Assembly: GCF_003569805.1 (NCBI RefSeq)
Contig: NZ_KZ984052.1
Span: forward strand, 364,494-428,493
Direction: 5' to 3'
DNA: 64,000 bases
DNA from: Microbacterium halotolerans
Lineage (GTDB): Bacteria > Actinomycetota > Actinomycetes > Actinomycetales > Microbacteriaceae
Shown here: one piece after another, positions 2,133 to 41,667 of the stretch
How positions within the stretch are numbered: the stretch's first letter is position 1
Layout: every line of letters starts with the position of its first letter
Position numbers and translations under genes: made by a program
The notes under the pieces: model-generated
Told to the model about the DNA's origin: nothing
Databases searched by the model: none
What the model saw: only the letters and a program-made list of their open reading frames with translations

Positions 2133-3623
2133 GTGAGCTCAGCAGGAGATCCTCCGGCCACACGCTCCATCGTGCTCGACCACGGGCAGCGCTGGCGCGC
2201 GTTCTGGGTCTGCGTGGCTGTTGCCGCGTTCACCATCCTGGACATCTCGAAGGTGAATGTCGGACTGCCCTCGATCGAGGAGGCTCTCGGTGGCGGCTCG
2301 ACGGAGCTGCAGCTCGTCGTCTCCGGGTACATCCTGGCCTTCGGCCTCGGGCTCGTGCCGTTCGGGCGCATCGGCGACCAGCGCTCGAGGCGGACGCTGA
2401 TGATCGTCGGACTGTGCGCCTTCGCGGTCGCGAGCGTGCTGTGCGCCGTCGCTCCCAACATCTGGTGGCTCGTCATCGCGCGCTTCCTGCAGGGTGTGGC
2501 GGCCGGCGTGCAGATGCCGCAGGTGATGGGCACGATCCAGCAGCTGTTCACCGGGCGTGAGCGCGGTGTCGCCTTCGGTCTGTTCGGTGCGGCGGTCGGT
2601 CTCGCCACGGCATTCGGCCCGACCCTCGGCGGCCTGCTGATCGCACTCGGCGGACCGACCGACGGATGGCGCTGGATCTTCTGGCTCAACCTGCCGCTGT
2701 GCCTGGTCGTGGTGCTCGCCGCCGTCTTCGTGCTGCCAGAGGTGCGCAGGCCGTCTCCCGCGCGCCTCGAGCTCGATCCCATCGGGCTTGCGCTGTTCGG
2801 CATCGCCGTGATCTCGCTCATGACGCCGTTCCTGCTCACCACGGGTTCGCCGGACGACGCCCCGGCCCGATGGTGGCTGCTGGTGCCGTTCCTGCTGTTC
2901 TGCGCCGGTTTCGTCGCCTGGGAGCGCCGTTATGCTCAGCGTGGCAAGTCGCCGCTCGTGCCGCTGCGGCTGTTCCGCGTGGTGTCGTGGCGCAACGGGA
3001 ACCTGCTGCAGCTGCTGTACTTCGCCGGCCTGCCGACGGTGTTCCTGCTCACGGCGGTGTTCCTGCAGACCGGTCTCGGCATCGAGCCCGTGTATGCCGG
3101 CATGGTCACAATGGGCTTCGCGCTGCTGAGCGCATATACATCGTGGCTCGGCGGCAGGCTCGTCGACCGACTCGGTCGCAGCCTCGTGATCGCCGGGCTG
3201 ATCACAGTGCTGTCCGCGATCGTCGGCCTCGTCATCGTGGGCTACGTCGCGAGCGACGCCGTCACGCCGTGGCTCATGGCGGGCGTGCTGGCGGTCGGCG
3301 GCATCGGCGGAGGCTTCGTCATCTCGCCGAACCAGACCCTGACCCTGGCCGAGATCCCGCCCCGTGAGGGCGGGCTGGCCGGGTCGGTAGGGCAGCTCGG
3401 TCAACGAATCGGCACAGCGGTCGGCACGGCCGTCGGCCTGTCCCTGTTCTACTCGACCGTGTACCGCGAGTCCGATGGATCCGGCGATACGACGGTCTAC
3501 CACGACGCGTTCGGAACGGGCCTTCTCGCGACCGCTGTGTGCGTCGCCGGTGCACTGGCCGTGGCGTTCATCGACCTGGGCAGTCGTCGCAGAGCGGCCC
3601 GTGGCGGCTCCAGCGAGGCCTGA
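2133..3623 (+). CDS. MFS transporter, DHA2 (14-TM) drug/proton antiporter family
   Basis: Inner-membrane proton-driven exporter of 496 residues, the length expected for the 14-helix DHA2 branch (EmrB/QacA-like). Motif A appears as GRIGDQRSRR between helices 2 and 3, and the antiporter motif C as GAAVGLATAFGPTLGG in helix 5. GTG 2133 follows the ctaB stop by 13 bases, so it may be cotranscribed with ctaB, although no metabolic link is evident. The exported compound cannot be predicted. No regulator is adjacent. Downstream, about 140 non-coding bases separate it from the convergent ctaA; they contain a short hairpin (CGGCTgagAGCCG) but no T-tract. Confidence 0.85.
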   Translation: MSSAGDPPATRSIVLDHGQRWRAFWVCVAVAAFTILDISKVNVGLPSIEEALGGGSTELQLVVSGYILAFGLGLVPFGRIGDQRSRRTLMIVGLCAFAVASVLCAVAPNIWWLVIARFLQGVAAGVQMPQVMGTIQQLFTGRERGVAFGLFGAAVGLATAFGPTLGGLLIALGGPTDGWRWIFWLNLPLCLVVVLAAVFVLPEVRRPSPARLELDPIGLALFGIAVISLMTPFLLTTGSPDDAPARWWLLVPFLLFCAGFVAWERRYAQRGKSPLVPLRLFRVVSWRNGNLLQLLYFAGLPTVFLLTAVFLQTGLGIEPVYAGMVTMGFALLSAYTSWLGGRLVDRLGRSLVIAGLITVLSAIVGLVIVGYVASDAVTPWLMAGVLAVGGIGGGFVISPNQTLTLAEIPPREGGLAGSVGQLGQRIGTAVGTAVGLSLFYSTVYRESDGSGDTTVYHDAFGTGLLATAVCVAGALAVAFIDLGSRRRAARGGSSEA

Positions 3624-3763
3624 CCCACGGCTCTTCAGCTCTCCTGCATCTCATCAGCGGCGCAGCCCGGCCATCCTCGGCTTCAGGGGCCTCCACTCGC
3701 TCGCGCGCGGGATACTGATCGGCATGGGGAGCAGCGACGGCTGAGAGCCGACGGCTCGCCGGA

Positions 3764-4846
3764 TCAGCCGGCGTGGGGAAAGTGCTCGCCTCGAGGGAGC
3801 CGCGAGGCGACCGGCGCCTTCAGGCGGAGTACGACGGCCACATAGGCGGCCGCTGAGAGTGCGGCGAGCACCATGTGGATGCCGACCAGCAGCGGGGGCA
3901 GAGCGGCATTGGCCTGCCACACGCCGACACCGATCTGCACGATCAGCACGGCGAGGAAGACCGTCGCCCATGCACGTGTCGGAAGCCTCCTGATCCATGC
4001 GAGTGCGGTGATCACGAGAGCCAGCGCGAGCAGCGCGTACCCGGGCCACGAGTGCACGTGTGCGAGCAGCGTGGCGTCGAAGCCGTCTCGCTGCACGTAC
4101 CGGTCACCCGAGTGCGGTCCGTTCCCCGTCGTGAGCACGCCGAACGCGATCGTCACCGCGAGGACCAGCGACGTGACGTGCACGAGCACGGCGTAGCCGC
4201 GCGGCACGGCGAGTGCGCGGTCGCCCGGCTCGGCGTTCATCCTGACCAGGAACGCCGCTGTGACGCAGACAAGGGCGAGCGACGACGCGTAGTGGAAGCC
4301 GACGATGAACGGGTTCAGCTCGGTGAGAACGGCGCTTCCGCCGACGACTGCCTGCGCCATGACGCCGACCAGCACGACCCACGCCAGCACATGCAGGTCG
4401 CGGCGCACGCGGGTCTTCGCAAGCGAATAGGCCATGCCAGCGAGCACCGCGACGAGAAGGACCACCGACATCACCACAGAGCCGACATCGCTCCGACCCA
4501 GCGCGTTGAGGGCTGCATAGGCGCCGATGGCGACGACGACACCGCCGATCGCGAAGATCAGCGCGGGCGCGACCGCGCGCATCCGGCCGGCGGCGAACAG
4601 CACCAGGAACAGCACTGCCAGCGCGAAGATGCCGACGACGCCCGTCATCATGCGGTTGCCGTACTCGATGATGCCGTGGATGCCCTGCGCGGCCGTCGGC
4701 ACGAGGGAATCGGGGGTGCACAGCGGCCACTGGTCGCAGCCGAGACCGGAGCCGGTCAGACGCACGGCACCTCCCGTGCCGATGATGATCACCTCGGCGA
4801 GGAAGGAGAGCCAGGCGAAGAACCTCAGGGCGGGGGAGATGCGCAC
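3764..4846 (-). CDS. ctaA: Heme A synthase (COX15/CtaA family)
   Basis: Integral membrane oxygenase that converts heme O to heme A for aa3-type cytochrome oxidase. The 360 residues form eight predicted helices as two four-helix repeats. Conserved heme-ligating and catalytic residues are visible: H57 and E61 in HGIIEYGNR, then HYASS, HVHSW and GIHM histidines. The paired cysteines C37 and C43 (GLGCDQWPLC) in the first outer loop match the type with a redox disulfide. Convergent with the MFS gene. Family and length are typical; nothing is broken. Confidence 0.95.
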   Translation of the reverse strand: MRISPALRFFAWLSFLAEVIIIGTGGAVRLTGSGLGCDQWPLCTPDSLVPTAAQGIHGIIEYGNRMMTGVVGIFALAVLFLVLFAAGRMRAVAPALIFAIGGVVVAIGAYAALNALGRSDVGSVVMSVVLLVAVLAGMAYSLAKTRVRRDLHVLAWVVLVGVMAQAVVGGSAVLTELNPFIVGFHYASSLALVCVTAAFLVRMNAEPGDRALAVPRGYAVLVHVTSLVLAVTIAFGVLTTGNGPHSGDRYVQRDGFDATLLAHVHSWPGYALLALALVITALAWIRRLPTRAWATVFLAVLIVQIGVGVWQANAALPPLLVGIHMVLAALSAAAYVAVVLRLKAPVASRLPRGEHFPHAG

Positions 4847-4961
4847 TCCAGCAGTCTAGGAAGGCAACCTGCGTCGATGATGAGCGCGGGGCGCGTCACG
4901 ACCTGCCGGAACCGCACGGAGCGGATGCCGCTGAACCGGGCGCGTCGCCGCTGTGAGCCTG

Positions 4962-5085
4962 TAGACTTGAATGGTTGAGAACAAGCGCGGAATGCGCTGA
5001 AACCGGGTCCCCAACAGCGCCCCTTTCTCCGTAAGGGCGGGCCGGATGATACCGATTCGGGATCCACGAGGAGAGTAGAGACGTC
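4962..5085 (+). promoter_or_regulatory. suf promoter and about 110-base leader
   Basis: TAGACT at 4962-4967 is the best -10 candidate, giving a leader of about 110 bases before sufB. The leader can form AGCGC-ggaat-GCGCT and a second hairpin, CGCCCCTT pairing with AAGGGCG across one bulge. No sufR-like regulator gene precedes sufB, unlike many actinobacteria, so control may act at a promoter site or in this leader. GAGGAGAG before ATG 5086 is the ribosome site. The remaining upstream bases (4847-4961) show nothing distinctive. Confidence 0.4.
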
Positions 5086-6504
5086 ATGTCTGATGTGCTG
5101 ATCGACCGCCCAGAGCTGGAAGGCCTGGGGGTGTACGAGTTCGGCTGGCACGATGAGGATGCGGCTGGCGCGAGCGCGAAGCGCGGCCTCACCGAGTCGG
5201 TCGTGCGCGACATCTCACAGCTGAAGAGCGAACCGGAATGGATGCTCAAGACCCGCCTGAAGGGTCTGAAGCTGTTCGAGAAGAAGCCGATGCCCACCTG
5301 GGGCGCCGACCTCAGCGAGATCGACTTCGACAACATCAAGTACTTCGTGCGCTCGACCGAGAAGCAGGCCCAGAACTGGGAGGACCTGCCGGACGAGATC
5401 AAGAACACCTATGAGAAGCTGGGCATCCCCGAGGCCGAGCGCCAGCGACTCGTCGCGGGTGTCGCCGCCCAGTACGAGTCGGAGGTCGTGTACCACCAGA
5501 TCCGCGAGGACCTGGAGAGCCAGGGCGTGATCTTCATGGACACGGACACCGCCCTGCGCGAGCACCCGGAGTTCTTCGAGGAGTACTTCGGCACCGTCAT
5601 CCCGCCCGGCGACAACAAGTTCGCCGCGCTGAACACCTCCGTCTGGTCGGGCGGGTCGTTCGTGTACGTGCCGAAGGGCGTGCACGTCGAGATCCCTCTG
5701 CAGGCGTACTTCCGCATCAACACCGAGAACATGGGGCAGTTCGAGCGCACCCTGATCATCGCGGACGAGGGCAGCTACATCCACTACATCGAGGGCTGCA
5801 CGGCCCCGATCTACAAGAGCGATTCGCTGCACTCGGCCGTCGTCGAGATCATCGTGAAGAAGAACGCGCGGGTGCGGTACACGACCATCCAGAACTGGTC
5901 GAACAACGTGTACAACCTCGTCACCAAGCGCGCCGTCGCGCACGAGGGCGCGACGATGGAGTGGGTCGACGGCAACATCGGCTCGAAGGTGACGATGAAG
6001 TACCCGTCGATCTTCCTGATGGGCGAGCACGCCAAGGGCGAGACGCTTTCGGTCGCCTTCGCGGGCCCCGGTCAGCACCAGGACGCCGGCGCGAAGATGA
6101 TCCACATGGCGCCCTACACGCAGTCGTCGATCGTGTCGAAGTCGATCGCCCGCGGCGGTGGACGTGCGGGCTATCGCGGTGAGGTGCGCGTCGATGAGAA
6201 CGCGCACCACTCGGCGAACACCGTGAGGTGCGACGCGCTGCTGGTCGACACGATCTCGCGCAGCGACACCTACCCCGCCATCGACATCCGGGTCGACGAC
6301 GTCGAGCTCGGGCACGAGGCGACCGTCTCCAAGGTCAGCGCCGAGCAGCTGTTCTATCTGCAGAGCCGCGGCATGCCGGAGGACGAGGCGATGGCGATGA
6401 TCGTGCGCGGGTTCATCGAGCCGATCGCGCGCGAGCTCCCCATGGAGTACGCGCTCGAGTTGAACAAGCTCATCGAGATGGGCATGGAAGGATCCGTCGG
6501 CTGA
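5086..6504 (+). CDS. sufB: Fe-S cluster assembly scaffold SufB
   Basis: Cytosolic scaffold subunit of the SufBC2D complex on which Fe-S clusters are built before transfer to apoproteins. At 472 residues it has the full family length, with an N-terminal helical part and a long right-handed beta-helix. The conserved cysteine in TVRCDALLV near the C-terminus corresponds to the essential SufB cysteine; the C-terminal helical signature [21 protein letters not shown] is present. The GAGGAG ribosome site supports ATG 5086. First gene of sufB-sufD-Rieske-sufC-sufT, with gaps of 1 base or overlaps. SufS and SufU are not in this window. Confidence 0.97.
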
Positions 6505-6505
6505 T

Positions 6506-7720
6506 ATGGCAGACACGACTCAGGCGCCGGTCGCGGCGCAGGAAGAGCACGCCCATCGCGACCCCGCGACGGTGATCATCCCGCCACAGGACGACGTCAT
6601 GATTCCGGTCCAGACGCGTTCGGAGCGCCCTCGCTCGTTCGATCCGGCCGACTTCGGGACGCCGACCGGGCGCGAGGTGAACTGGCTGCACACACCGCTG
6701 AAGACCGTCTCGCCGCTGTTCGAGCAGGCGGACGCCGACGGCGGCGTCGTCCACGAGGTCATCTCGGGCGAGCAGTTCCTCGACCAGTCGCTGCCCGTGG
6801 GCGTCGCCCCGCGCGGTGAGTTCTTCGTGCCGGAGGACCTGCCGTCGGCGGTCGCATGGCAGTCGGCGACCGAGGCCCGCTTCGTCAGGATCCCGCGCGA
6901 GGAGATCGTCGAAGAGCCGATCACCATCCGCATCACGGGTCAGGGCGCCGAGCAGCGCGCCGATGACCATATCGTCATCGAAGCGGCAGAGCACTCCAAG
7001 GCCGTCGTCGTGCTGCGGCACTCCGGCTCGGCTCAGTACGCGCAGAACGTCGAGATCATCGTGCGCGACGGCGCAGACCTTACGGTCATCTCCGTGCAGC
7101 ACTGGGACGATGACGCCGTGCACACCGCCAGCCACCAGGCGCGTGTCGACAACGATGCGCGCCTGCGGCACTTCGTGGTCACCTTCGGCGGATCGCTCGT
7201 GCGGGTCAACCCGAACATCGAGCTCGCCGGCGCCGGCGCGGTCGGCGAGGGCTACGGCCTCAGCTTCGCCGACGCCGGCCAGCACTTCGAGAGCCAGGTG
7301 TTCCTGTTCCACAAGGGTCCGCACACCACGGGTGACGTGCTCTACAAGGGTGCGCTGCAGGGCGCGAGCGCGCACAGCGTGTGGATCGGCGATGTGCTGA
7401 TCGGCCCGGATGCCACCGGCACGAACTCCTACGAGGCCAACCGCAACCTGGTGCTCACGAACGGCGCGCGCGCCGACTCGATCCCCAACCTCGAGATCGA
7501 GACGGGCGACATCCTCGGTGCCGGGCACGCCTCGGCGACGGGCCGCTTCGACGACGAGCAGCTGTTCTATCTGCAGGCGCGCGGCATCTCCGAGGAGGAG
7601 GCACGCCGTCTGGTGGTCGTCGGCTTCCTGGCCGAGATCGTGCAGAAGCTGAACCTGCCGGATCTGGAGGCGGAGCTGTCGGAGGCGATCGAGCGCGAAC
7701 TCGCGGAGGGCGAGCAGTGA
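6506..7720 (+). CDS. sufD: Fe-S cluster assembly protein SufD
   Basis: SufB paralogue that completes the SufBC2D scaffold and is thought to help iron entry. It has 404 residues, begins one base after the sufB stop, and carries the beta-helix and the C-terminal FYLQARGISEEEARRLVV signature shared with SufB, but lacks the SufB cysteine (the matching stretch reads GTNSYEANRNLVL), as expected for SufD. The 3' end overlaps the Rieske gene by four bases, implying translational coupling. The N-terminal 25 residues look disordered and family-atypical, but ATG 6506 is the natural coupled start. Confidence 0.95.
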   Translation: MADTTQAPVAAQEEHAHRDPATVIIPPQDDVMIPVQTRSERPRSFDPADFGTPTGREVNWLHTPLKTVSPLFEQADADGGVVHEVISGEQFLDQSLPVGVAPRGEFFVPEDLPSAVAWQSATEARFVRIPREEIVEEPITIRITGQGAEQRADDHIVIEAAEHSKAVVVLRHSGSAQYAQNVEIIVRDGADLTVISVQHWDDDAVHTASHQARVDNDARLRHFVVTFGGSLVRVNPNIELAGAGAVGEGYGLSFADAGQHFESQVFLFHKGPHTTGDVLYKGALQGASAHSVWIGDVLIGPDATGTNSYEANRNLVLTNGARADSIPNLEIETGDILGAGHASATGRFDDEQLFYLQARGISEEEARRLVVVGFLAEIVQKLNLPDLEAELSEAIERELAEGEQ

Positions 7721-8043
7721 GCGCCGTCCGCGTCTGTGCGCTGAGCGAGCTCGTCCAGGACGAGGCGCTCCGCGTCGAGGCCGACGGCGTGCCGGTCGCG
7801 GTCGTCCTCGATTCCAACGGCGATGTGCACGCCATCGGCGACACCTGCACCCACGGCGAAGTCTCCCTCTCAGAGGGCTTCGTCGAGGACGACACCCTGG
7901 AGTGCTGGGCGCACGGATCCGCGTTCTCGCTGACGACCGGCAAGCCCTTGAACCTCCCCGCATACGAGCCCGTCCCGGTCTTCGCCGTCGAGATCGACGG
8001 CGACGACGTGCTCATCGATCCCAACGTGAAGAAGGAAGTCTGA
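7717..8043 (+). CDS. Rieske-type [2Fe-2S] ferredoxin inside the suf operon
   Basis: Small (108-residue) Rieske protein of the non-heme-oxygenase ferredoxin type. The cluster ligands are visible as C-T-H (CTHGEVSLSEG) and C-W-A-H about 19 residues later (ECWAHGSAF). It starts with GTG overlapping the sufD stop by four bases and ends one base before sufC, so it is embedded in the suf transcript. A role as electron donor to Suf assembly, or as an early client, is inferred from position; no oxygenase gene is nearby that would make it a dioxygenase component. Soluble: no signal peptide or membrane segment. Confidence 0.9.
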   Translation: MSAVRVCALSELVQDEALRVEADGVPVAVVLDSNGDVHAIGDTCTHGEVSLSEGFVEDDTLECWAHGSAFSLTTGKPLNLPAYEPVPVFAVEIDGDDVLIDPNVKKEV

Positions 8044-8044
8044 C

Positions 8045-8815
8045 ATGGCTGTTCTCGAGATCCGCGACCTGCACGTCACGGTCGAGACCGACGAGGGGAC
8101 CACGCCCATTCTCAACGGCGTGAACCTCACAGTGCGCTCCGGCGAGACGCACGCGATCATGGGCCCCAACGGGTCAGGCAAGTCGACGCTCGCGTCGACG
8201 ATCGCCGGCCACCCGAAGTACACCGTCACGAGCGGTTCGATCGCGCTCGACGGGGAGGACGTCCTCGAGATGAGCGTCGACGAGCGCGCTCGTGCCGGAC
8301 TGTTCCTCGCGATGCAGTACCCGGTCGAGATCCCGGGCGTGACCGTGACGAACTTCCTGCGCACGGCCAAGACCGCGCTGGACGGCGAGGCGCCGGCCAT
8401 CCGGACCTGGACGAAGGACATCAAGGAGGGCATGACGAACCTCCGGATGGACCCGAAGTTCGCCCAGCGCAACGTGAACGAGGGCTTCTCCGGAGGCGAG
8501 AAGAAGCGAAACGAGATCCTCCAGCTGGAGCTGCTTAAGCCGCAGCTGGCGATCCTCGATGAGACCGACTCCGGTCTCGACGTCGATGCGCTCAAGGTCG
8601 TCTCGGAGGGCGTCAACCGTGCGCGCGAGGCGACGGGGCTCGGTGTGCTGCTGATCACGCACTACACGCGCATCCTGCGCTACATCGCGCCGGACTACGT
8701 GCACGTGATGATCGGCGGCAGGATCGTCGAAGAGGGCGGCGCCGAGCTGGCCGACAAGCTCGAGGAGTCCGGCTACGCGGGCTACCTCCCCGACGACGCG
8801 ACGATCGAAGCGTAG
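8045..8815 (+). CDS. sufC: Fe-S assembly ATPase SufC
   Basis: ABC-type ATPase that binds SufB and SufD and drives the conformational change of the scaffold; it is cytosolic and has no permease partner. The 256 residues contain Walker A GPNGSGKST near residue 40, the signature FSGGEKKR, Walker B AILDETDSGLD and a switch histidine in LITHYTRIL. Full length for the family. Its last codons contain the TAGGCT -10 element of the next gene. Confidence 0.97.
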   Translation: MAVLEIRDLHVTVETDEGTTPILNGVNLTVRSGETHAIMGPNGSGKSTLASTIAGHPKYTVTSGSIALDGEDVLEMSVDERARAGLFLAMQYPVEIPGVTVTNFLRTAKTALDGEAPAIRTWTKDIKEGMTNLRMDPKFAQRNVNEGFSGGEKKRNEILQLELLKPQLAILDETDSGLDVDALKVVSEGVNRAREATGLGVLLITHYTRILRYIAPDYVHVMIGGRIVEEGGAELADKLEESGYAGYLPDDATIEA

Positions 8816-8818
8816 GCT
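8813..8818 (+). promoter_or_regulatory. Putative -10 box for a leaderless sufT transcript
   Basis: TAGGCT, overlapping the sufC stop codon, lies seven bases before the sufT ATG. A transcript from it would begin at or next to the start codon. There is no Shine-Dalgarno before sufT, which supports leaderless initiation and expression partly independent of the operon promoter. Confidence 0.5.
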
Positions 8819-8825
8819 GAGTCGT

Positions 8826-9155
8826 ATGGACGCCACGCTTGCCGACGGGAAGTTCGACGAGGTCACAGAAGCGCTCAAGGACGTCATGGACCCCGAGCTC
8901 GGGGTCAACATCGTCGACCTCGGACTGATCTACGACCTCAGCTGGGACGACGAGAACGACGCGCTGGTCATCCACATGACACTGACGAGCGCCGGATGTC
9001 CGCTCACCGACGTGCTCGAAGAGCAGACCGGTCAGGCGCTCGACGGCGTGGTCGAACGGTTCCGGATCAACTGGGTCTGGATGCCGCCGTGGGGGCCGGA
9101 GAAGATCTCCGAGGACGGGCGCGACATGATGCGCGCACTCGGCTTCTCTATCTGA
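8826..9155 (+). CDS. sufT: SufT-type Fe-S maturation factor (MIP18/DUF59 family)
   Basis: Small cytosolic protein of 109 residues that assists loading of Fe-S clusters into target proteins. The family hallmarks are DPELGVNIVDLGLIYDL near residues 22-38 and a cysteine in SAGCPLTD that is the conserved reactive residue of DUF59. Last gene of the suf cluster, 10 bases after sufC, followed at once by a strong hairpin. Name given by context and family; the exact target is unknown. Confidence 0.9.
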   Translation: MDATLADGKFDEVTEALKDVMDPELGVNIVDLGLIYDLSWDDENDALVIHMTLTSAGCPLTDVLEEQTGQALDGVVERFRINWVWMPPWGPEKISEDGRDMMRALGFSI

Positions 9156-9172
9156 CTCCGCTGCGCTGACCA

Positions 9173-9210
9173 CGCGCAATGCCCCGCCTTCGGACGGGGC
9201 ATTGCGCGTT
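9173..9210 (+). terminator. Hairpin ending the suf operon
   Basis: Perfect 14-base stem (9173-9186 with 9195-9208) whose loop contains C-TTCG-G, able to form a stable UUCG tetraloop. It lies 17 bases after the sufT stop. The T-tract is minimal (TT), so it may act with Rho or as an RNA 3'-end stabiliser. Confidence 0.75.
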
Positions 9211-9226
9211 CCGGCGCAGGCTCGGG

Positions 9227-9232
9227 CAGGAT
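9227..9232 (+). promoter_or_regulatory. Possible -10 box of the 9.2-12.5 kb cluster
   Basis: CAGGAT six bases before GTG 9239, one base off TANNNT, at the same spacing as other leaderless starts in the window. Confidence 0.3.
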
Positions 9233-9238
9233 GGGACC

Positions 9239-10522
9239 GTGGCAGACGAGGACAGGACAGCGGCGACTCGTGTCGGGTGGCGCGATGTCGTCGGCTCTGT
9301 CGGCACGGCGGGTCGGCTCATCGGACGTCACTGGCCGCGGATGCTCACGGCCGCACTGCTGGGGATCGCGTTCCGCAACGCGGTCATCTGGGGCGCTGTG
9401 GCGCTGAGCGCATCCGTGCCATGGCTGGCTCAGGTCGTGCTGGTGTTCGCGCCGCTCGGGTATCTCGTGCCGATCGTGTACATGCTGCGGCTCTGCGCCG
9501 AGGACCTCCCGCGGCTGCGCGCGGCGATCGCCGCTGAGGCACCCGACAGCCCAACGGAGGGGCGCCAGCAGCGGCTGATCGACGTATCGGTGTCGGTGCT
9601 GGTGCCGTTCCTCGCGGTGTACACGGCGTACAACCTGCTCGAGGAGGACCGCAATCGTTTCGTGAACGCGGCGGCGGCCGACGAGCTGTTCAACGGCTTC
9701 GCCGCACCTGAGGGCATCGACCTGCTGGGGCGGCTGCAGCTGAACAACCCGCTCTGGATGATCCTCTCCCTTGTCGCCGTGGCCCTCATCGTGCGCTGGC
9801 TGCTCGGTCGCGTCGAGCGGGTGTGGCGCTTCGTCGGCATCGCGTTCCTGGGTGCGTTCATCGAGCTGTTCTGGACGATCTACGTCTCCGAACAGCTGCA
9901 GGACGGGCTGCGCGGCGCGATGAACTGGCTGCTCGGCCGCACCTTCGTCGTGGCGATGATCGACTGGTGGGACGGCGTCGTCGACGCCCTCGGATGGCTC
10001 GGCATTCCGCTCGACGTCTCCGTGAGCTGGCTGGTCGGGCTGTTCGGCTCGATCGGGCCCGTGATCGTCGTCCCGATCGCCTGGCTGGTCGTCGCCTCGG
10101 TCGTGCTCGGCCACCGCCTGACGCCCCCGGAGCGAGTCGATCATCCGGCGCTGAATCGCGTCACACGCTCTGTGCCCGATCGTGTGAAGAAGGTGGGTGC
10201 CAGCCTCATCGCCGACATCGGCGGCCGTTGGGCGGCGTTCTTCGGCGGCGTCGGACTGGTGCTGCGCACGGGACTCGTGCCGATCCTGGCGTTCTGCATC
10301 GTCTTCCTGATTCCCAACCTCGTTCCCACGATCGTGAGCTGGTGCGCCAGATGGCTGATCGGACCGACCGATGCATGGACCTTCCTCGCATTCTCTCCGT
10401 GGGAGACGGCCATCGGCCTCGCCCTGCAGCTGGTGGCGACCGCGCCGATCGTCGCGGCGGCACTCGACCGGTTCCTCGTGCCCGTCGGCGCGCCGACCAT
10501 CCCCGCTGAGGCGATCCGATGA
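9239..10522 (+). CDS. Polytopic membrane protein of unknown function
   Basis: Unrecognised protein of 427 residues with several long hydrophobic segments (for example around residues 37-58, 62-84, 125-140, 175-190, 205-225, 265-300 and 335-420). No catalytic motif, transporter signature or cofactor site is apparent. The start is taken as GTG 9239: an upstream in-frame ATG at 9179 lies inside the suf hairpin, and GTG is preceded by a -10-like CAGGAT. Its stop overlaps the next gene by four bases, the first of three such overlaps in a four-gene unit. Possibly the membrane anchor or channel of a small envelope complex; this is inference from gene order only. Confidence 0.7.
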   Translation: MADEDRTAATRVGWRDVVGSVGTAGRLIGRHWPRMLTAALLGIAFRNAVIWGAVALSASVPWLAQVVLVFAPLGYLVPIVYMLRLCAEDLPRLRAAIAAEAPDSPTEGRQQRLIDVSVSVLVPFLAVYTAYNLLEEDRNRFVNAAAADELFNGFAAPEGIDLLGRLQLNNPLWMILSLVAVALIVRWLLGRVERVWRFVGIAFLGAFIELFWTIYVSEQLQDGLRGAMNWLLGRTFVVAMIDWWDGVVDALGWLGIPLDVSVSWLVGLFGSIGPVIVVPIAWLVVASVVLGHRLTPPERVDHPALNRVTRSVPDRVKKVGASLIADIGGRWAAFFGGVGLVLRTGLVPILAFCIVFLIPNLVPTIVSWCARWLIGPTDAWTFLAFSPWETAIGLALQLVATAPIVAAALDRFLVPVGAPTIPAEAIR

Positions 10523-34988: not shown

Positions 34989-36347
34989 TCAGACGGGCAG
35001 CTCTCGGCCGAGGAAGGCGCCGTCGGCTTCGAGGCGGCGCTGCAGTTCGCCGACGTCGATGTCGGCGCCGCCCAGGCCGGTGCCGAGCGCGATGGCCGCC
35101 GCGGTACCCGCCGCCTGGCCCATGGCGAAGCAGGGGCCGGTCACGCGGCCGGACGACTGACCTCCCTGGGTCATCGATGCGCAGCGCCCGGCGACCAGGA
35201 GGTTCTCCACGCGCTGGGGCACGAGCATCCGGTAGGGGAGCTGGTTGTAGCCGCGCGAATCGACTGGGGCGAAGCGGAAGGCCACGTCGCCGGTCACATG
35301 AGCCTCGACGGGCCAGCCGTTCACGCCGATCGTGTCGTCGAAGTCGGCGCAGCCGAGCACGTCCTCCTCGGTGAGCTGGTATCCGCCCAGCACGCGGCGC
35401 GTCTCGCGGATTCCGACGGAGGGTGCGATGTCGACGATGTACGAGTCCTGGAAACCAGGGGTGTGATCTCTGATGAACTCGAACGCGTCCCAAGCCTGCC
35501 TGCGGCCCTGCAGCTCCCCCCTGGTGAGCTGGTGCACGTCGGTGCCGTCGACCGGCGAGCCGTCGGCATTGGACAGCTGTGTGAGATTGGAACGCCACTC
35601 CAGGGGGTTCCGCTGCGGACGCACGATCGGCTTCTTGCGCGGGAACGCGTGAGTGCCCGCCGCCTCGGCCTGTTCCATCTGCTCCCTGACCACGCGCCAG
35701 GCGTCGCCGGCTTCATCGGGGTCGACGCCGTTGATCCGGAACATCAGCGACGGGTACATCAGCTTCTCCGACCGCTCGAACGGCGCCCCAGCCCACGCAG
35801 AGATGTCGGCGTCACCGGAGCCGTCGATGAAGAAGCGACCCCGCACGGCGGCGCGGCCGGACTTCGATTCGACGAGTACCGTGTCGATGCGGTCGTCCGC
35901 CGAGCGTGTGACGCCGACGGCCCTGGCATGGAACAGGATCTCGCCGCCGCCGGAGGTGACCAGCTCGTCCGCCGCCAGCTTCAGCGCGGAGATATCGTAC
36001 GACAGCGCCTGGATGCGATCCGCGACCGACAGATGCGGCTCGTTGAGACCGTCGAGCGCGCGCATCCGGTCGAGCAGCTCATCCGCGTATCCGTGGATCG
36101 ACTGCACGTCGGTGCCGAACACCCGTGCGTGCATGCCGCAGAAGGTCGCGAGTCCGCCCATCGTGCCTGCGCCGCCGAGGAACCCGTACATCTCGATCAG
36201 GAGGGTCGACATGCCATGGCGGCTCGCCGCGGTCGCCGCCATGAGGCCGGCCGGGCCGCCGCCGATCACGACGACGTCGTACTCGCCGATGACGGGGGTG
36301 CTGCGCGCGGACTCCTGGACGGTCGACGTCGACATGATGCCGGTCAT
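34989..36347 (-). CDS. FAD-dependent oxidoreductase (FAD_oxidored family)
   Basis: Flavoprotein of 452 residues. The dinucleotide fold begins with VVVIGGGPAGL (G29-G34), followed by the FLGGAGTMGGLATFCG stretch typical of this family, a second GSGDADISAWAG segment, and a C-terminal VAGRCASMTQGGQSSGRVTGPC flavin-closing region seen in parts. ATG 36347 overlaps the dehydratase stop, so the two enzymes are made together. A role in oxidising a hydroxy- or unsaturated acid is plausible; the family is functionally diverse and the substrate is unknown. Convergent with the IclR gene, with no clear terminator in the 68-base gap. Confidence 0.85.
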   Translation of the reverse strand: MTGIMSTSTVQESARSTPVIGEYDVVVIGGGPAGLMAATAASRHGMSTLLIEMYGFLGGAGTMGGLATFCGMHARVFGTDVQSIHGYADELLDRMRALDGLNEPHLSVADRIQALSYDISALKLAADELVTSGGGEILFHARAVGVTRSADDRIDTVLVESKSGRAAVRGRFFIDGSGDADISAWAGAPFERSEKLMYPSLMFRINGVDPDEAGDAWRVVREQMEQAEAAGTHAFPRKKPIVRPQRNPLEWRSNLTQLSNADGSPVDGTDVHQLTRGELQGRRQAWDAFEFIRDHTPGFQDSYIVDIAPSVGIRETRRVLGGYQLTEEDVLGCADFDDTIGVNGWPVEAHVTGDVAFRFAPVDSRGYNQLPYRMLVPQRVENLLVAGRCASMTQGGQSSGRVTGPCFAMGQAAGTAAAIALGTGLGGADIDVGELQRRLEADGAFLGRELPV

Positions 36348-38071
36348 GCGGGGACTCCTGCGGCTGTGGGGGAGGACGGAGCCCTGTCGCAGGGTGCACC
36401 GCACAGCACGGCGCCGCAGCTGAGGGGCTGCACCAGCTGCTCGTACTGCTCGAGATAGCCCCCACCGGAATCGCGGTCGGCGATCGGGACGAAATCGGGC
36501 CTGTCGGCGAGAACGGCCTCGTCGACCAGCAGATCGACCGTGCCGGCCTTCAGGTCCATTCGGATGGGGTCACCGTCCTGCACTCGGCCGAGGGGCGATC
36601 CGGGAAGCGCCGCCTCAGGCGAGACCTCGCCGATCGTCATACCCTGGTTCACCAGGCCGGAGAACTGCCCGTCGGTGACGAGCGCGACGCTGTGTGCGAG
36701 CCCGCGGGCGTGCAGCGCGAAGATGAAGGCGCTGGTCAGACCGAGGCCGGGCGCGCCCGTCACGCCGATGCCGCGGATCACCGCGACGTCGCCCTCGCGG
36801 AGGCGGCCGCTGGAGATCCCCGCGATGGCGTCCTCCCGGTTGCGGAAGATGCGTGCTGGCCCTTCGAAGGTGTGGGGCCCTGGGTCGGGAACCGGCCTCT
36901 TCGCGACCGCGCCGCCCGGCGCGAGCGAGCCTTTGAGCACGCTGATCGCCGGGTCGGTGCCGAAGGCTTTCGCGAGGGACCTGATGACATCATCGTCGCC
37001 CGGCCGCGCCAGTGCGGCATTGTCAGCGACCGTCGCGCCGGAGACCGTCAGCACATCGCCGTCGAGGAGCGGCAGCAGTTCGCGAAGCGTCGTGGCGGCG
37101 CCTCCAGCGTCCTCGTACTCTTCCGTCAGGCGGGGCCCGTTGGGGCGCACCGAGCACAGCAGCGGCGTCTCTCGTCCGAGCGTGCGGAACAGCTCCCACA
37201 CATCGATGTCGAGCCCGGCTTCGATCGCAATCGCCTGCAGATGCTTGATCGTGTTGATCGAGCCGCCGACGGCGAGCATGGCGCGCACGCCGTTGCGCAC
37301 GGCGCCCGCCGTGATGATGTCTCGGGGCCGGATGTCGCGGGCGACCAGATCGGCGAGAGCGGCGGCGCTGCGGGCGACGTTGTGCCACATCCGCTCGCCC
37401 AGCGCGCGAACAGGGGCGGCACCCGGCAGCGCCATGCCGATCGCCTCGGCCAGGATGTGCATGGAGTTCGCGGTCGCGAGACCTGCGCAGACTCCCGGGC
37501 CGAGGATCGCATCCTGCGCCTGCTCTTCCAGCCCGTCCGTCGGCTCGCCCGTCACGGCCGCCTTCGACGCCTGCAGGAAGATCTCCTCGATGTCGGCCTC
37601 GCGGCCCTCTGCAAGCCCGGAATGTTGGTAGCCGCACGGAATGACGATGGTCGGGATGTTCAGGCGCCCCGCGGCCATCAGGTGTCCCGGCGTCGTCTTG
37701 TCGCACGAGCTCAGACAGATCATCGCGTCGAGCTTGGCACCTTCGACGGCCGCCTCGATGTCGTCGACGATCAGGTCACGGCTCGGCAGGATGTACCGGC
37801 CGGCACGGCCGGCGCTCGTGACGAAGTCGCTCGGTGCGGTCGTGCGGATCTCGAAGGGCAGGAGCCCGGCGTCGCGCAGATGTGTCTTCAGGCGGGCCGC
37901 GACCTCGTCGAGGTGCGAGAAGCAGGCGGCGAGCTCAGACGATGTGTTCACGATCGCGACCTTGGGGCGGTCCCAATGCTCGCGCGGGATGCCGAGCGCC
38001 GTGTAGTGCGCCTGCCTGGCGATCGCAAGCGCCGAGGTGCGGGGAAGGTTGCTGCGGAGCGGGGAGGACAT
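36344..38071 (-). CDS. IlvD/Edd-family dehydratase
   Basis: Fe-S dehydratase removing water from a 2,3-dihydroxy or sugar acid to give a 2-keto acid. 575 residues. The three cluster cysteines align: C50 (AACFSH), C123 (SSCDKTTPG, with the conserved Lys) and C195 (GPGVCAGLATANSM). Because it is linked to a FAD enzyme and IclR regulators rather than ilv genes, a catabolic sugar- or hydroxy-acid substrate is more likely than branched-chain synthesis. Near-complete family length. Upstream palindrome TGCGTACGCA at 38147-38156. Confidence 0.9.
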   Translation of the reverse strand: MSSPLRSNLPRTSALAIARQAHYTALGIPREHWDRPKVAIVNTSSELAACFSHLDEVAARLKTHLRDAGLLPFEIRTTAPSDFVTSAGRAGRYILPSRDLIVDDIEAAVEGAKLDAMICLSSCDKTTPGHLMAAGRLNIPTIVIPCGYQHSGLAEGREADIEEIFLQASKAAVTGEPTDGLEEQAQDAILGPGVCAGLATANSMHILAEAIGMALPGAAPVRALGERMWHNVARSAAALADLVARDIRPRDIITAGAVRNGVRAMLAVGGSINTIKHLQAIAIEAGLDIDVWELFRTLGRETPLLCSVRPNGPRLTEEYEDAGGAATTLRELLPLLDGDVLTVSGATVADNAALARPGDDDVIRSLAKAFGTDPAISVLKGSLAPGGAVAKRPVPDPGPHTFEGPARIFRNREDAIAGISSGRLREGDVAVIRGIGVTGAPGLGLTSAFIFALHARGLAHSVALVTDGQFSGLVNQGMTIGEVSPEAALPGSPLGRVQDGDPIRMDLKAGTVDLLVDEAVLADRPDFVPIADRDSGGGYLEQYEQLVQPLSCGAVLCGAPCDRAPSSPTAAGVPA

Positions 38072-38246: not shown

Positions 38247-39008
38247 TCAGCGCTTCGCTGACAGCGACCGTGAGATGCCTCCGGCCGCCACGCGCACCAG
38301 GTGGGCGGCGTTGCGCTCGTCGGCGTCCTCGTACCGCATGATCAGCGACAGGGCGGCCACCACCTGGCCGCCCGGCACCGTTACCGGGGCGGCGACCGCC
38401 ATGTACTCGGTGTTCAGGTCCCGCCCGCTGATGGCGTAGCCGCGGATGCGCACCTCGGCGAGCTCCCGTTTGAACGCATGGGCGTCGACTGTCGGCGGCA
38501 GCTGCTCGTCGAGCATCCGGTCACGCTCGTCCAACGGCGCGTAGGCGAGCAGAACCCGTCCGACGGCCGTCGTGTGCATGTCGTGTCTGCCGCCCACCCG
38601 CGGGCGCGTGAGCACCTGTGACGGGCTCTGGAACCGCTCGACGAACACCGTCTCGTTTCCCTCGCGGATGGCGAGATGGATCGAATAGTGGGTGATCTCG
38701 TAGAGGTCGTGCATGAACGGTCGAGCGATGCGCTGCATCGCCATGGAGCGCGGTGCGAGGGAGCCGACCTCCCACAGCCGGAGGCCCACGTGGTACCTGC
38801 CGTGGTCGTCGCGTTCGAGCGCGCCCCACTCGGCGAGCGAGTTCACCATCCGGTACGTCGTCGCAAGCGGCAGGTCGGCGTTGCGGCTGATCTCGCTGAG
38901 CGTCTGGCGCGCCCTGCCCTGCCGGAAGGTGCCGATGATCGACAGCGCTCGATCGACCGACCTCGGCAGCGCGGCTCTGGGCGGTGCTGGGCGCTCGGCG
39001 ATGACCAT
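38247..39008 (-). CDS. IclR-family transcriptional regulator
   Basis: A 253-residue regulator. Winged helix QTLSEISRNADLPLATTYRM (about residues 38-57), then an effector domain with LRLWEVGSLAPRSMAMQ and TRPRVGGRHDMHTTAVGRVLLAY. It is more like the IclR at 13.3 kb in its helix-turn-helix (both read ISR-ADLPL-TT-R) than the one at 34.1 kb. It lies between the UGSC pair and the dehydratase operon on the same strand and may control either. Confidence 0.9.
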   Translation of the reverse strand: MVIAERPAPPRAALPRSVDRALSIIGTFRQGRARQTLSEISRNADLPLATTYRMVNSLAEWGALERDDHGRYHVGLRLWEVGSLAPRSMAMQRIARPFMHDLYEITHYSIHLAIREGNETVFVERFQSPSQVLTRPRVGGRHDMHTTAVGRVLLAYAPLDERDRMLDEQLPPTVDAHAFKRELAEVRIRGYAISGRDLNTEYMAVAAPVTVPGGQVVAALSLIMRYEDADERNAAHLVRVAAGGISRSLSAKR

Positions 39009-39029: not shown

Positions 39030-40139
39030 TCAGGCGTCGACGGCCTGCGTCGACAGCGGGATCTCCCGGGGCGGGTTCAGCGTGAAGACCTCCACGATCG
39101 CGGAGACGCCGGCATTGTTCGCCCCTGCGACCATGATCTGCACGGATGTCGGATAACTCAAGAGTGGCACGTCATCCGGTGCTGCGGACGAACTCGCCGT
39201 GTCCGGCATCGCATCCGGATGATCGGCAGGCAGGCGCCAGTGCGATTTGTGCGAGAGTGCATCCTTGCCCACGGCGGCGAGCTCGGAGCGATCGCGACGG
39301 GAATGCTCGAAGATGAAGCGCCTGAGGTCGTCCTTCGACCAGCCGGCATCGGCGAGCATCTGCGCGTGCTCGGGTGCGAGCACGACGAGCGCGCTGGTGT
39401 ACTCATGGATCAGAGCGCCGGTGCGCCGAATGCTGTCAGCCAGGTCGAGGGCGAGCTGCTCTGGGGCGGAGGTGTGCCTCGCCTCGATATGCATCACAGA
39501 CCGGACGACGAAGGCTGTCACGACGGACTCGTCGGCCGCGTGGCCCTGTTCGACCGCCAGGCTCGGCCACGGACTGAGCTCCTCGTTCTCTCCGATCACC
39601 GCCGTGTACTTCGACGGATTGCCCTGTGTCGCCTGGTCGAGCTCGTGGGGGCGCAGGCCGAACACGTTGATCAGGCCGAGCCTGATCGCCCGCCCGATCG
39701 TCGCATTGGCACGGTGGCCCGACCCGAAGACGTTGCCGGCGCTGTTCAGAGAGATCTCGTTCCTGATGGGGCCGTTCACGACCGTGAACGGGGCGGTTCC
39801 CGTCGTGCTCTGCCAGATGCCGCGGCGAGGGTGAGGTTCCTTCGCGATCGCCAGCCACGCAGCGATGACCACGGGGAGGTACGCAGGCATGCACCCTGCG
39901 AGTGCAGCGTTGATCGCGGCGAGGCGCACCGTGATCCGACGGTTCAGATGCGGGATCTCGAACAGCACATCATCTGGCTCGCGCCTCGTCATCGCGAGAA
40001 AGTCCGCCAGCAGCGATTCGGTGACGGGAGTGACGGGAAGTCCATCGGTCCAGCCGCGCCCGTCGTAGTACTCCTGGGCGAGGCGCACCGTCTCCGCATC
40101 GACGGCGGGGGGCGTGAGCGTATCGGCTGCGATGCTCAT
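39030..40139 (-). CDS. Uncharacterised protein paired with the UGSC-family protein
   Basis: Unrecognised 369-residue protein. It has no signal peptide or long hydrophobic helix. Notable stretches are YYDGRGWTDGLPVTPVTE near the N-terminus, the Gly/Asn/Ser-rich core TTGTAPFTVVNGPIRNEISL with NVFGSGHRANATIGRA, and a C-terminal VQIMVAGANNAG segment, which together look like a substrate- or cofactor-binding fold. Its start overlaps the CGSC-protein stop by four bases, so the two are translationally coupled and probably form one enzyme or complex. No function is proposed. Confidence 0.8.
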   Translation of the reverse strand: MSIAADTLTPPAVDAETVRLAQEYYDGRGWTDGLPVTPVTESLLADFLAMTRREPDDVLFEIPHLNRRITVRLAAINAALAGCMPAYLPVVIAAWLAIAKEPHPRRGIWQSTTGTAPFTVVNGPIRNEISLNSAGNVFGSGHRANATIGRAIRLGLINVFGLRPHELDQATQGNPSKYTAVIGENEELSPWPSLAVEQGHAADESVVTAFVVRSVMHIEARHTSAPEQLALDLADSIRRTGALIHEYTSALVVLAPEHAQMLADAGWSKDDLRRFIFEHSRRDRSELAAVGKDALSHKSHWRLPADHPDAMPDTASSSAAPDDVPLLSYPTSVQIMVAGANNAGVSAIVEVFTLNPPREIPLSTQAVDA

Positions 40140-40681
40140 TCCGCGTCACCGCCGGTCAGGATGCGCACGGCGACGGGAAGCGTGCTCGCGGCGTGCTCGC
40201 CGAGCTGGGCGTCGTCGAGGCTCGCGAACGGGTGAGGCACGGCGTGGAACTCGAAGCCGGGGAAGCCCTGCACTGCGGCCATGGCGCGTCCGGAAGGGTA
40301 GAACGCGTCGGAGACGATGCTCACGGTCGGCACGCCCGCACGCTCGAACAGAATGCCGTCGACGACGGTCGCTGCGCTGCACGAGCCGCAGTCTCCGACG
40401 CCGGTGATCACCACGTCGACTTCATCGACGATCCGCGCCAGCAGGTCGTCACCGGCCGGGGTGCCGAAGTAGTCCTTCGTGTAGAGCTTCGTCTCCGCCA
40501 CGCCCTCGGAGTCAGCCAGCAGCCCGCCGAGCTTCTCGAGGAACATCGTCGTGTTGGGCTTGGTGTTGTCGAGAAGGCCCACGGTGAGCCCCGTCAGCGT
40601 TGCGGGCCGCGGCGCAAGGGTCGCGTCGTCGGTCTGTTCGTCCATGCCGGTGGGGTCCAGCAGCAGTTCGGTCGTCGTCAT
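40136..40681 (-). CDS. UGSC-family protein, cysteine form (CGSC motif)
   Basis: A 181-residue protein whose core VITGVGDCGSCSAATVVDG (C98, C101) matches the UGSC family, in which some members have selenocysteine at the first position. Here that position is a TGC codon (40390-40388), so it is a plain Cys version of a CxxC-type redox pair. The strand-turn pattern GLTVGLLDNTKPNTTMFLEKL before it is also typical. Start chosen at ATG 40681, preceded by GAGAGGTG. Probably a redox or C-S chemistry protein; the reaction has not, to my knowledge, been defined. Divergent from an amidohydrolase with a shared IclR-type site. Confidence 0.8.
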   Translation of the reverse strand: MTTTELLLDPTGMDEQTDDATLAPRPATLTGLTVGLLDNTKPNTTMFLEKLGGLLADSEGVAETKLYTKDYFGTPAGDDLLARIVDEVDVVITGVGDCGSCSAATVVDGILFERAGVPTVSIVSDAFYPSGRAMAAVQGFPGFEFHAVPHPFASLDDAQLGEHAASTLPVAVRILTGGDAE

Positions 40682-40747
40682 CGTCGGCACCTCTCGATCA
40701 TCTCGTTGCTTCAGACAATCCGATTCGGCGCCGCGCGACCGGCCGGT

Positions 40748-40762
40748 TTCCACGCCGCGAAA
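40748..40762. promoter_or_regulatory. Candidate IclR operator, site D
   Basis: TTCCACGCCGCGAAA inside GGTTTCCACGCCGCGAAAAC, whose ends also form GTTTC...GAAAC. It lies 67 bases from the UGSC-protein start and 42 bases from the amidohydrolase start, in their divergent promoter region. Confidence 0.55.
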
Positions 40763-40803
40763 ACTCCCGCCGTGACGGCTTATGCGCGCGCGAGAGTGAG
40801 AGC

Positions 40804-41667
40804 ATGACACTCAGCCCCGAGATCGTGGCCATCGACGTCCACACCCACGTACAGCGCTCTGTGCGGGCGGACACCGCGCTCGACTCCGAGAAGAGCGAGG
40901 CGATGGCCGCCTACTTCCGCACCGACGTGCACCCCCCGACGGTCGTCGACCTCGCGGAGCTGTACCGCGCGAAGAAGATGATGTGCGTCGCCTTCTCTGT
41001 GGACGACAGCTGGCTCACCGGGGAGGACAACCCGGTGAGCAACGAGGAGGTCGTCGATCTCGCCGCAGAGCATGCCGACGCGGTCATCCCGTTCGTCACG
41101 GTCGACCCGCATGCGGGCGCGCGCGGCGCGCGGCAGCTCCGGCGGCTTGCGGAGCGGGGTGCACGCGGGGTGAAGCTCCATCCCAGCGCGCAGGCGTTCT
41201 TCCCCAACGATCGGGAGACCTATCCGCTGTACGAGGCGATGGAGGAGACCGGGCTGATCGGGCTGTTCCACAGCGGACACACCGGTGCGGGCGCCGGTCG
41301 GCGCGGAGGAGGCGGCATCCGACTGAAGTACGCGAGGCCGATGCTCGTCGACGATGTCGCCGTCGACTTCCCCGACCTGCCGATCATCCTGGCCCATCCG
41401 TCCTTCCCATGGCAGGACGAGGCGCTGTCGATGGCACTGCACAAGCCGAACGTGCACATCGACCTCTCCGGCTGGTCGCCGAAGTACTTCCCGCCGAACC
41501 TGGTTCAGTACGCACGCACGCTGCTCAAGCACAAGATGCTGTTCGGAACCGACTACCCCGTGATCACCCCCGAGCGCTGGATGAAGGACTTCACGGCTCT
41601 CGGATTCGACGATGCGGTCACTCGCCTGATTCTCCGAGACAACGCCGCCTACCTCCTCTCCCTGTAG
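40804..41667 (+). CDS. Amidohydrolase family 2 (ACMSD-like) enzyme
   Basis: Metal-dependent hydrolase or decarboxylase of 287 residues with a TIM-barrel pattern. Metal ligands are visible: H13-T-H15, the His of GVKLHP, the His residues of LFHSGH, the His of LAHPSFPW and Asp in GTDYPVITPE. The family includes aminocarboxymuconate-semialdehyde decarboxylase and resorcylate decarboxylases, which again hints at aromatic or cyclic acids. Start ATG 40804; its ribosome site is weak (GAGAG). No terminator is obvious after it. Confidence 0.88.
   Translation: MTLSPEIVAIDVHTHVQRSVRADTALDSEKSEAMAAYFRTDVHPPTVVDLAELYRAKKMMCVAFSVDDSWLTGEDNPVSNEEVVDLAAEHADAVIPFVTVDPHAGARGARQLRRLAERGARGVKLHPSAQAFFPNDRETYPLYEAMEETGLIGLFHSGHTGAGAGRRGGGGIRLKYARPMLVDDVAVDFPDLPIILAHPSFPWQDEALSMALHKPNVHIDLSGWSPKYFPPNLVQYARTLLKHKMLFGTDYPVITPERWMKDFTALGFDDAVTRLILRDNAAYLLSL

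Follow-up and report, generated by a model that had tools for sequence, protein, structure and literature searches.

The GrdB and PrdB subunits of the glycine and D-proline reductases have their usual home in amino-acid fermenters. A paper of 2008 introduced the UGSC family of proteins and its UxxC motif, where U stands for selenocysteine (Sec), and already reported one fusion, with a domain named 'Unknown_1' (PMC2398784). The family, its motif and its abundance are covered by PMC2398784, PMC13188914, PMC9312934, PMC5029168 and PMC5330540, and the functions of this selenoprotein group are described as largely uncharacterised (PMC13188914). Here we analysed a stretch of 64,000 nucleotides from Microbacterium halotolerans (contig NZ_KZ984052.1, positions 364,494 to 428,493; hereafter the window), in which a UGSC-family protein in its cysteine form is encoded together with a 369-residue partner without a family model, referred to below as BIG. 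The two genes are near-obligate partners, occur as natural fusions and lie among catabolic genes, and UGSC shares distant homology with the Sec region of GrdB and PrdB. We hold with moderate confidence that both proteins form a two-subunit selenol/thiol reductase resembling PrdB/GrdB within catabolic clusters, where it would probably serve to degrade organic acids or aromatic compounds. Neither a partner gene nor a relation to GrdB/PrdB is named in the open literature on UGSC, to which the comparison was confined, and the family descriptions consulted mention neither a partner gene nor a near-obligate linkage. That same open literature gives no reaction for the family, as the first-pass annotation of the window had stated; its description of the pair as a new system was too strong, because the family and its UxxC motif, together with one fusion, have been in print since 2008 (PMC2398784). 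The domain called 'Unknown_1' may or may not be BIG.

The UGSC gene (40136..40681, minus strand) starts with ATG at 40681 and encodes 181 amino acids matching PF24696 (E value 3.5e-63; 213.2 bits, cut-off 25) and NF041046 (138.7 bits, cut-off 125). Residues 97-101 read DCGSC, and C98-G-S-C101 corresponds to the [U/C]xxC motif of the family. These four codons (40379..40390, minus strand) place Cys98 at the position where most relatives carry Sec, encoded by TGA or TAG, with Cys101 as the second cysteine; codon 98 is TGC, so the window protein has no in-frame Sec codon and is not a selenoprotein. No SelB was found above the cut-off in this genome (the best candidate scored 197.7 bits against 242.25 and covered 262 of 581 positions), in line with the Cys form of its UGSC. 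The BIG gene (39030..40139, minus strand) overlaps UGSC by the bases ATGA at 40136-40139. Its Cys83 codon (39891..39893, minus strand) lies within a conserved AGC.P motif and is cysteine in 72 of 74 aligned rows. For BIG, the Pfam search returned nothing above the cut-off (a single row, 13.9 bits of 27), and no match was obtained in NCBIfam up to E 0.1 or among PDB sequences up to E 1. Both reading frames with their coordinates, the overlap, the two cysteines and the lack of a recognisable family for the larger protein were thus as the first-pass annotation had described them. A second UGSC-BIG pair was present on another contig of the same genome, each of its subunits being 46% identical to that of the first pair.

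Coupling of the two genes was quantified in 396 Actinomycetota genomes, all of them searched with PF24696 for UGSC and with an alignment of BIG (A1), scoring per genome the best eight candidates for UGSC and the best five for BIG. Both genes were found in 27 genomes, UGSC alone in none, BIG alone in two and neither in 367 (Fisher p 8e-40, relatedness not corrected); every genome with UGSC therefore had BIG, which was found in 29 genomes, the two BIG-only cases being G183 and G351, the latter with a 30-position fragment (numbers preceded by G, C and L are our own handles for genomes, contigs and loci). Two further genomes contained UGSC rows only below the cut-off, and these resembled the N-termini of flavoproteins. 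A BIG gene on the same strand was located at 1 kb or less from UGSC in 40 of 46 rows, in the order UGSC-BIG in 11 and BIG-UGSC in 29; since both orders occur, the link is more than one inherited operon. Among the UGSC rows above the cut-off, 41 of 44 were adjacent to BIG, counting the BIG at G362:C251, which was missed among the best five candidates and recovered by a later search. Of the three unpaired rows, G102:C23 is located at the end of a contig, G156:C68 is a short fragment, and G046:C612 lies close to the start of a contig, its 6 kb of sequence showing no BIG. The fragment in G156 (locus L200) is a C-terminal piece of UGSC with no BIG within 6.5 kb, perhaps a remnant. When BIG was used as the seed, an adjacent pair was present at 21 of 25 loci in named genomes, the exceptions being L017, L018, L022, which starts near a contig end, and L029, which is a partial BIG match. 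An occurrence of the two genes mostly apart, named in the first-pass annotation as the outcome that would speak against the pair, was not what we saw in the genomes searched.

Distribution of the pair was patchy, as three genomes of the window's own genus had neither gene in the UGSC and BIG scans. Among plasmids, BIG was found in 24 records, with Actinomycetota, Proteobacteria, Bacillota and haloarchaea represented. The distance matrices of 59 UGSC-BIG pairs correlated closely (Mantel r 0.897, with a maximum of 0.189 in 2000 permutations), as expected for units inherited together, shared species history contributing both to this figure and to the nearest-neighbour agreement given below. Copy numbers were obtained by scoring every candidate in eight genomes picked for having the genes, and are given as plain counts. 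The BIG to UGSC counts were 6:2 (G397), 3:1 (G398), 5:5 (G399), 3:3 plus a BIG fragment (G400), 5:4 (G401), 2:2 (G396), 4:0 (G183) and 6:5 (G362). UGSC outnumbered BIG in none of them, a pattern that would be compatible with one redox subunit shared among exchangeable partners. Tandem copies of BIG without an adjacent UGSC were observed at L190 (G183, C272) and at L017, the G183 genome having no UGSC match.

The first-pass annotation had proposed a search for fused and Sec-containing homologues, and both kinds exist. Seven in-frame fusion genes with no stop between the domains were found, all in the order UGSC-BIG (two in L028, and one each in L054, which is the same as L189, L055, the same as L188, L063, L064 and L179). 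Four of them, namely both L028 genes, L054 and L179, were of the Sec form with an in-frame TGA; the Sec codon was absent from L055, L063 (a Vibrio europaeus plasmid) and L064 (a Sporomusa termitida plasmid). The L028 fusions, from Thermacetogenium, are 584 and 586 codons long, and in both of them the sole TGA marks the position of Sec. They stand in tandem (3962-5713 and 7704-9461), their N-terminus ends in LSGCG, resembling by eye a lipoprotein signal, and each is preceded by a gene of one family, of which the member tested (2546-3667) has a Cache domain; these fusions possibly represent an extracytoplasmic version of UGSC-BIG.

Conservation of UGSC was assessed on 62 rows above 50 bits, corresponding to 61 genes because L055 and L188 are the same gene; UGSC and BIG rows below 50 bits were left out and all counts refer to rows. 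Position 98 was TGA in 37 rows, TAG in seven, Cys in 14 and Met in four, so that Sec occupied it in 44/62 and either Cys or Sec in 58/62; position 101 was Cys in 58/62. The TAG rows (L011, L012, L013, L014, L016, L026, L027) belong to records labelled Geodermatophilus, Blastococcus or Geodermatophilaceae. A Sec tRNA for UAG has been reported in three Geodermatophilaceae genomes, with UGSC-motif selenoproteins among the examples (PMC5330540, citing Mukai 2016). In G401, TAG copies of UGSC were found alongside stop-free, presumably Cys, copies. At L065, a Paracoccus ferrooxidans plasmid, a Sec-form UGSC adjoins BIG, selA and selB lie within about 10 kb, and the record splits the UGSC stretch into two small hypothetical proteins. 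For BIG, besides Cys83, the residues Asn145, Arg150 and Glu184 were conserved in 73, 72 and 73 of 74 rows, respectively, and Asn122 in 57/74, though it was invariant among the first 30 sequences.

Direct comparison of UGSC with the NCBIfam models of GrdB, GrdF and PrdB gave weak matches (E 0.006 to 0.07) far under the cut-offs; with 15.5 bits for TIGR01917 (cut-off 602) and 12.5 bits for TIGR04483 (cut-off 300), UGSC is not a member of those families, and PF07355 gave no row in the Pfam scan of UGSC up to E 0.1. Profiles were then compared, for which genes of GrdB, PrdB and GrdE/PrdA came from genomes in the same phylum as L028, after exclusion of the GrdB of L101 (truncated) and L111 (no frame) and the PrdB of L131 (no frame) and L133-L140 (GrdB-like). 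Alignment by hhalign gave a score of 66.8 (96%, 94 columns) for UGSC against GrdB (18 sequences) and of 38.9 (73%, 65 columns) against PrdB (11 sequences, two of them under the PrdB cut-off). Column-shuffled UGSC controls reached maxima of 22.7 and 20.9, respectively, and none of 60 attained the real score in either case. The CGSC of UGSC was aligned onto the UGTC of GrdB and PrdB, Sec on Sec, and a downstream E..G[IV]P stretch matched as well. These scores, together with the alignment of the Sec columns, indicate at the sequence level a remote relationship between UGSC and the region of GrdB/PrdB that bears the Sec, UGSC lying outside those families by their cut-offs. What appears new here is this link between UGSC and GrdB/PrdB by profile comparison with Sec aligned on Sec. 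A relation of BIG to GrdE or PrdA was not borne out, in the sense that no similarity was detectable, shuffled controls scoring as high as the real profile in 9/60 cases for GrdE (20 sequences) and in 39/60 for PrdA (7 sequences).

Neither UGSC nor BIG had relatives of known structure by sequence profile in the PDB (best E 0.44 and 1.1, respectively, with a BIG profile of 30 sequences). One L028 fusion was modelled from 43 sequences (mean predicted local distance difference test score, pLDDT, 80.9; predicted template modelling score, pTM, 0.78). In its UGSC half strands and helices alternate, and the Sec position (residue 102) is placed between a strand at 94-98 and a helix at 103-118. This half matched flavodoxin-like and Rossmann-like chains, with no thioredoxin among the 50 matches listed per search, the top one being a chain of 8s7v (Z 10.0, 131 residues, root-mean-square deviation 3.0, 18% identity). 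The BIG model, from 30 sequences, had a mean pLDDT of 83.1 and a pTM of 0.86, and gave only middling matches to a variety of PDB folds (fumarase-type, Toblerone hydrolases, encapsulins, chorismate mutase and others), so that its assignment to a known fold found no support. Its C-terminal part matched a class I fumarase subunit best, and weakly (Z 7.0, 89 residues), and the best Foldseek result was E 2e-3 with a template modelling score of 0.25.

Genomic surroundings were examined in 44 locus groups by our own homologue searches, with flanks of unequal length, heuristic gene calls at the relatives' loci and no background control; the groups are not all independent, several coming from one genome. 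L018 overlaps the contig stretch of L012, and its AcnX, one IlvD and one flavoprotein are the genes of the Geodermatophilus group. Neighbours of the pair were mostly catabolic enzymes (dehydrogenases, aldehyde dehydrogenases, coenzyme A (CoA)-transferases and ligases, hydrolases and dehydratases), accompanied by uptake systems of the tripartite ATP-independent periplasmic (TRAP), tripartite tricarboxylate (TTT) and ATP-binding cassette (ABC) types. A zinc alcohol dehydrogenase was near the pair in 12 of the 44 groups, an aldehyde dehydrogenase in 11, CaiB in nine, AcnX in five (the L018 copy being shared), an amidohydrolase in five and IlvD in four. A Pfam tally was made on 117 of 154 neighbour frames, excluding 32 from annotated plasmid loci and five short ones; the commonest families had five members each and none was general. 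Flavoproteins of PF12831 were near the pair in nine groups, one of them (L220) weak. In L064 and L188 the flavoprotein gene stood directly 3' of the fusion, at 18 and about 60 bases, respectively; in L008 it came after BIG, in L216 it adjoined the pair, and it was also present in the cluster of the window. The trxB gene was near the pair in four groups as a strong match (L025, about 7 kb off, L059, L060, L062) and in one as a weak match, the gene order being trxB-trxA-BIG-UGSC, immediately adjacent, in L060 and BIG-UGSC-trxB in L059; such neighbours are suggestive of thioredoxin as a donor. In L018, from Geodermatophilus sabuli, a lone BIG (7959-9119), 61% identical to that of the window, apparently overlaps a PF12831 flavoprotein gene (9107-10450), and a UGSC-BIG pair is situated about 12 kb away. 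The Met/Ser fusions of L063 (8347-10032) and L064 (8311-10035), considered below, lie near AcnX/DUF126. Genome G399 contains five pairs. Four of them stand within about 35 kb (L215-L217, C108, approximately 62-97 kb) of a catabolic island, where a LigB-type ring-opening dioxygenase, an F420-type oxidoreductase and an ABC system of the oligopeptide type are also encoded. Other roles were discarded or found no support: a sulfonate pathway, to which annotated phosphosulfolactate-synthase-like neighbours in L058 and L060 had pointed, since the homologue of the L060 protein was found in L060 only among the 44 groups; defence, with no PADLOC match; and viral carriage, with no UGSC relative in viral contigs by a search that detects close relatives only.

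In the window, the minus strand carries, in this order, UGSC, BIG, an IclR-type regulator (38247..39008; PF01614, 4.7e-27, and PF09339, 4e-15) whose start is 21 bases downstream of BIG, an IlvD/Edd-type dehydratase (36344..38071; PF00920, 3.1e-89) and the PF12831 oxidoreductase, dependent on flavin adenine dinucleotide (34989..36404; 1.1e-106), which has a listed GTG start at 36404 and was scanned from a start at 36347. An amidohydrolase of 287 residues (40804..41667, plus strand; PF04909, E 3.8e-48) faces UGSC, as the first-pass annotation had indicated. The operator it had proposed the two to share found no support: no operator was apparent in the 122 bases between both starts (40682..40803), the sole inverted repeat in 40660-40830 was one of 11 nucleotides, 82% complementary, with arms 102 nucleotides apart, and the alignment with L005, the single near relative, was 95% conserved over 211 columns. 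As this conservation extends throughout the stretch, the comparison cannot reveal an operator.

A two-subunit reductase is the simplest account of these data, because it brings together the near-obligate pairing, the fusions, the use of Sec, the kinship to GrdB/PrdB and some trxB neighbours. In such an enzyme the redox role would fall to UGSC, which has a predicted flavodoxin-like alpha/beta fold and a remote kinship to the catalytic region of GrdB/PrdB; its Sec or Cys98, at the start of a helix, would act as nucleophile and be resolved by Cys101. BIG would supply most of the substrate site through its conserved glycines, Asn145, Arg150, Glu184 and Cys83. We infer that the two form a complex working in the direction of reduction. 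With a carbonyl compound bound by BIG, the reduced selenol or thiol would attack an activated carbon or heteroatom of this compound, the reduced product would leave, and the resulting Cys98-Cys101 disulfide (or selenenyl sulfide) would be returned to its reduced state by thioredoxin or a flavoprotein encoded nearby. Different substrates in the catabolic clusters could then be served by paralogous pairs or by additional BIG subunits that share one UGSC. As a tentative extension, possible but doubtful, the pairs might make up a modular selenoenzyme class within a wider GrdB/PrdB superfamily, in which exchangeable BIGs, each specific for its substrate, use a common selenol subunit, sometimes with a PF12831 protein as third component, for the reductive cleavage of activated carbonyl intermediates from organic acids and aromatics.

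Several observations weigh against the two-subunit reductase, and some of them agree with other explanations. Three fusion genes (L055, identical to L188, L063 and L064) carry Met98 and Ser101, which excludes a C98-C101 dithiol from their reaction; the domain pair thus persists without it, and in that branch a different chemistry may reside partly or wholly in BIG. Cys83 of BIG is Ala in L054, a UxxC fusion, and in L190, from the genome without UGSC. UGSC and BIG had the same nearest neighbour in their matrices for only 30 of 59 pairs, a disagreement that may reflect partner exchange or noisy data. A strong trxB match stands near the pair in only 4/44 groups, the neighbouring enzymes differ so widely that no single pathway is indicated, and as BIG shows no detectable relation to GrdE/PrdA, the pyruvoyl chemistry of those proteins is not transferable to it. 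Moreover, BIG is found without UGSC in G183 (four copies) and at L017, L018 and L022, which means that it may do its own chemistry. This last point leads to the explanation, in our view rather unlikely, that the actual enzyme is BIG, acting on catabolic intermediates as a lyase, hydratase or reductase, and that UGSC, in an accessory redox or structural role, protects, reduces or completes it. The absence of any excess of UGSC over BIG in the eight counted genomes agrees with it, as does the retention of Cys83 in the three fusions that lack Cys98 and Cys101, and the best, weak, matches of the C-terminal domain are to class I fumarases. However, that structural match is within the range reached by unrelated folds, and Sec in 44/62 UGSC rows would be costly for a mere accessory.

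The recurrent PF12831 neighbour could instead make the system a three-part enzyme, in which the flavoprotein passes electrons to the UGSC/BIG site or takes them from it. It adjoins the fusion, BIG or the pair at L064, L188, L008, L018 and L216, but it was not found in 35 of the 44 groups within the stretches examined and may merely share the pathway, which leaves a three-part enzyme distinctly unlikely. More improbable still is a general oxidoreductase of thioredoxin fold, the guess made for UGSC in the 2008 paper (PMC2398784). Its UxxC/CxxC motif and the trxB neighbours at some loci would agree with that guess; the predicted fold, flavodoxin- or Rossmann-like in the model, does not support it, the neighbours being mostly catabolic enzymes and transporters speaks against it, and a near-obligate partner of 369 residues would be unexpected. 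The two-subunit reductase thus remains the reading that we prefer. It would agree for most members with the CxxC-type active site proposed in the first-pass annotation, which is likely because the motif aligns with the Sec of GrdB/PrdB; as three fusions have lost both redox residues, the motif does not seem to be indispensable in every member.

Comparison with known systems places the window protein closest to its own family, being above both curated cut-offs (PF24696 and NF041046) and keeping the C/U-G-S-C motif, with Cys in place of Sec as the difference. Owing to this Cys form, the pair could be produced in ordinary Escherichia coli without selenium machinery. By structure, the top match of the UGSC half was to the McrC-like domain proteins in the activation complex of methyl-coenzyme M reductase (8s7v), which bind nitrogenase-like iron-sulfur clusters (PMC12176620); the match, not clearly above the next, unrelated rows (Z 9.6 and 9.3), serves only as a lead, and the chain concerned, H, may be Mmp7 judging from its length. 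With a near-obligate partner and a kinship to GrdB/PrdB named, what was an 'unknown redox protein' can now be tested as a two-subunit reductase, and if the modular class were real, glycine-reductase-like chemistry would extend from fermenting anaerobes to aerobes, haloarchaea and, through lipoproteins, the cell surface. Like UGSC, GrdB and PrdB have a UxxC motif, with Cys three positions after Sec, followed by an E..GIP/GVP stretch. In contrast, UGSC is much shorter than GrdB and scores under the cut-offs of those families; their partners GrdE and PrdA are of the pyruvoyl type (PF09338), to which BIG has no detectable relation; and UGSC is found among the catabolic genes of actinobacteria, proteobacteria and haloarchaea, and not only in amino-acid fermenters.

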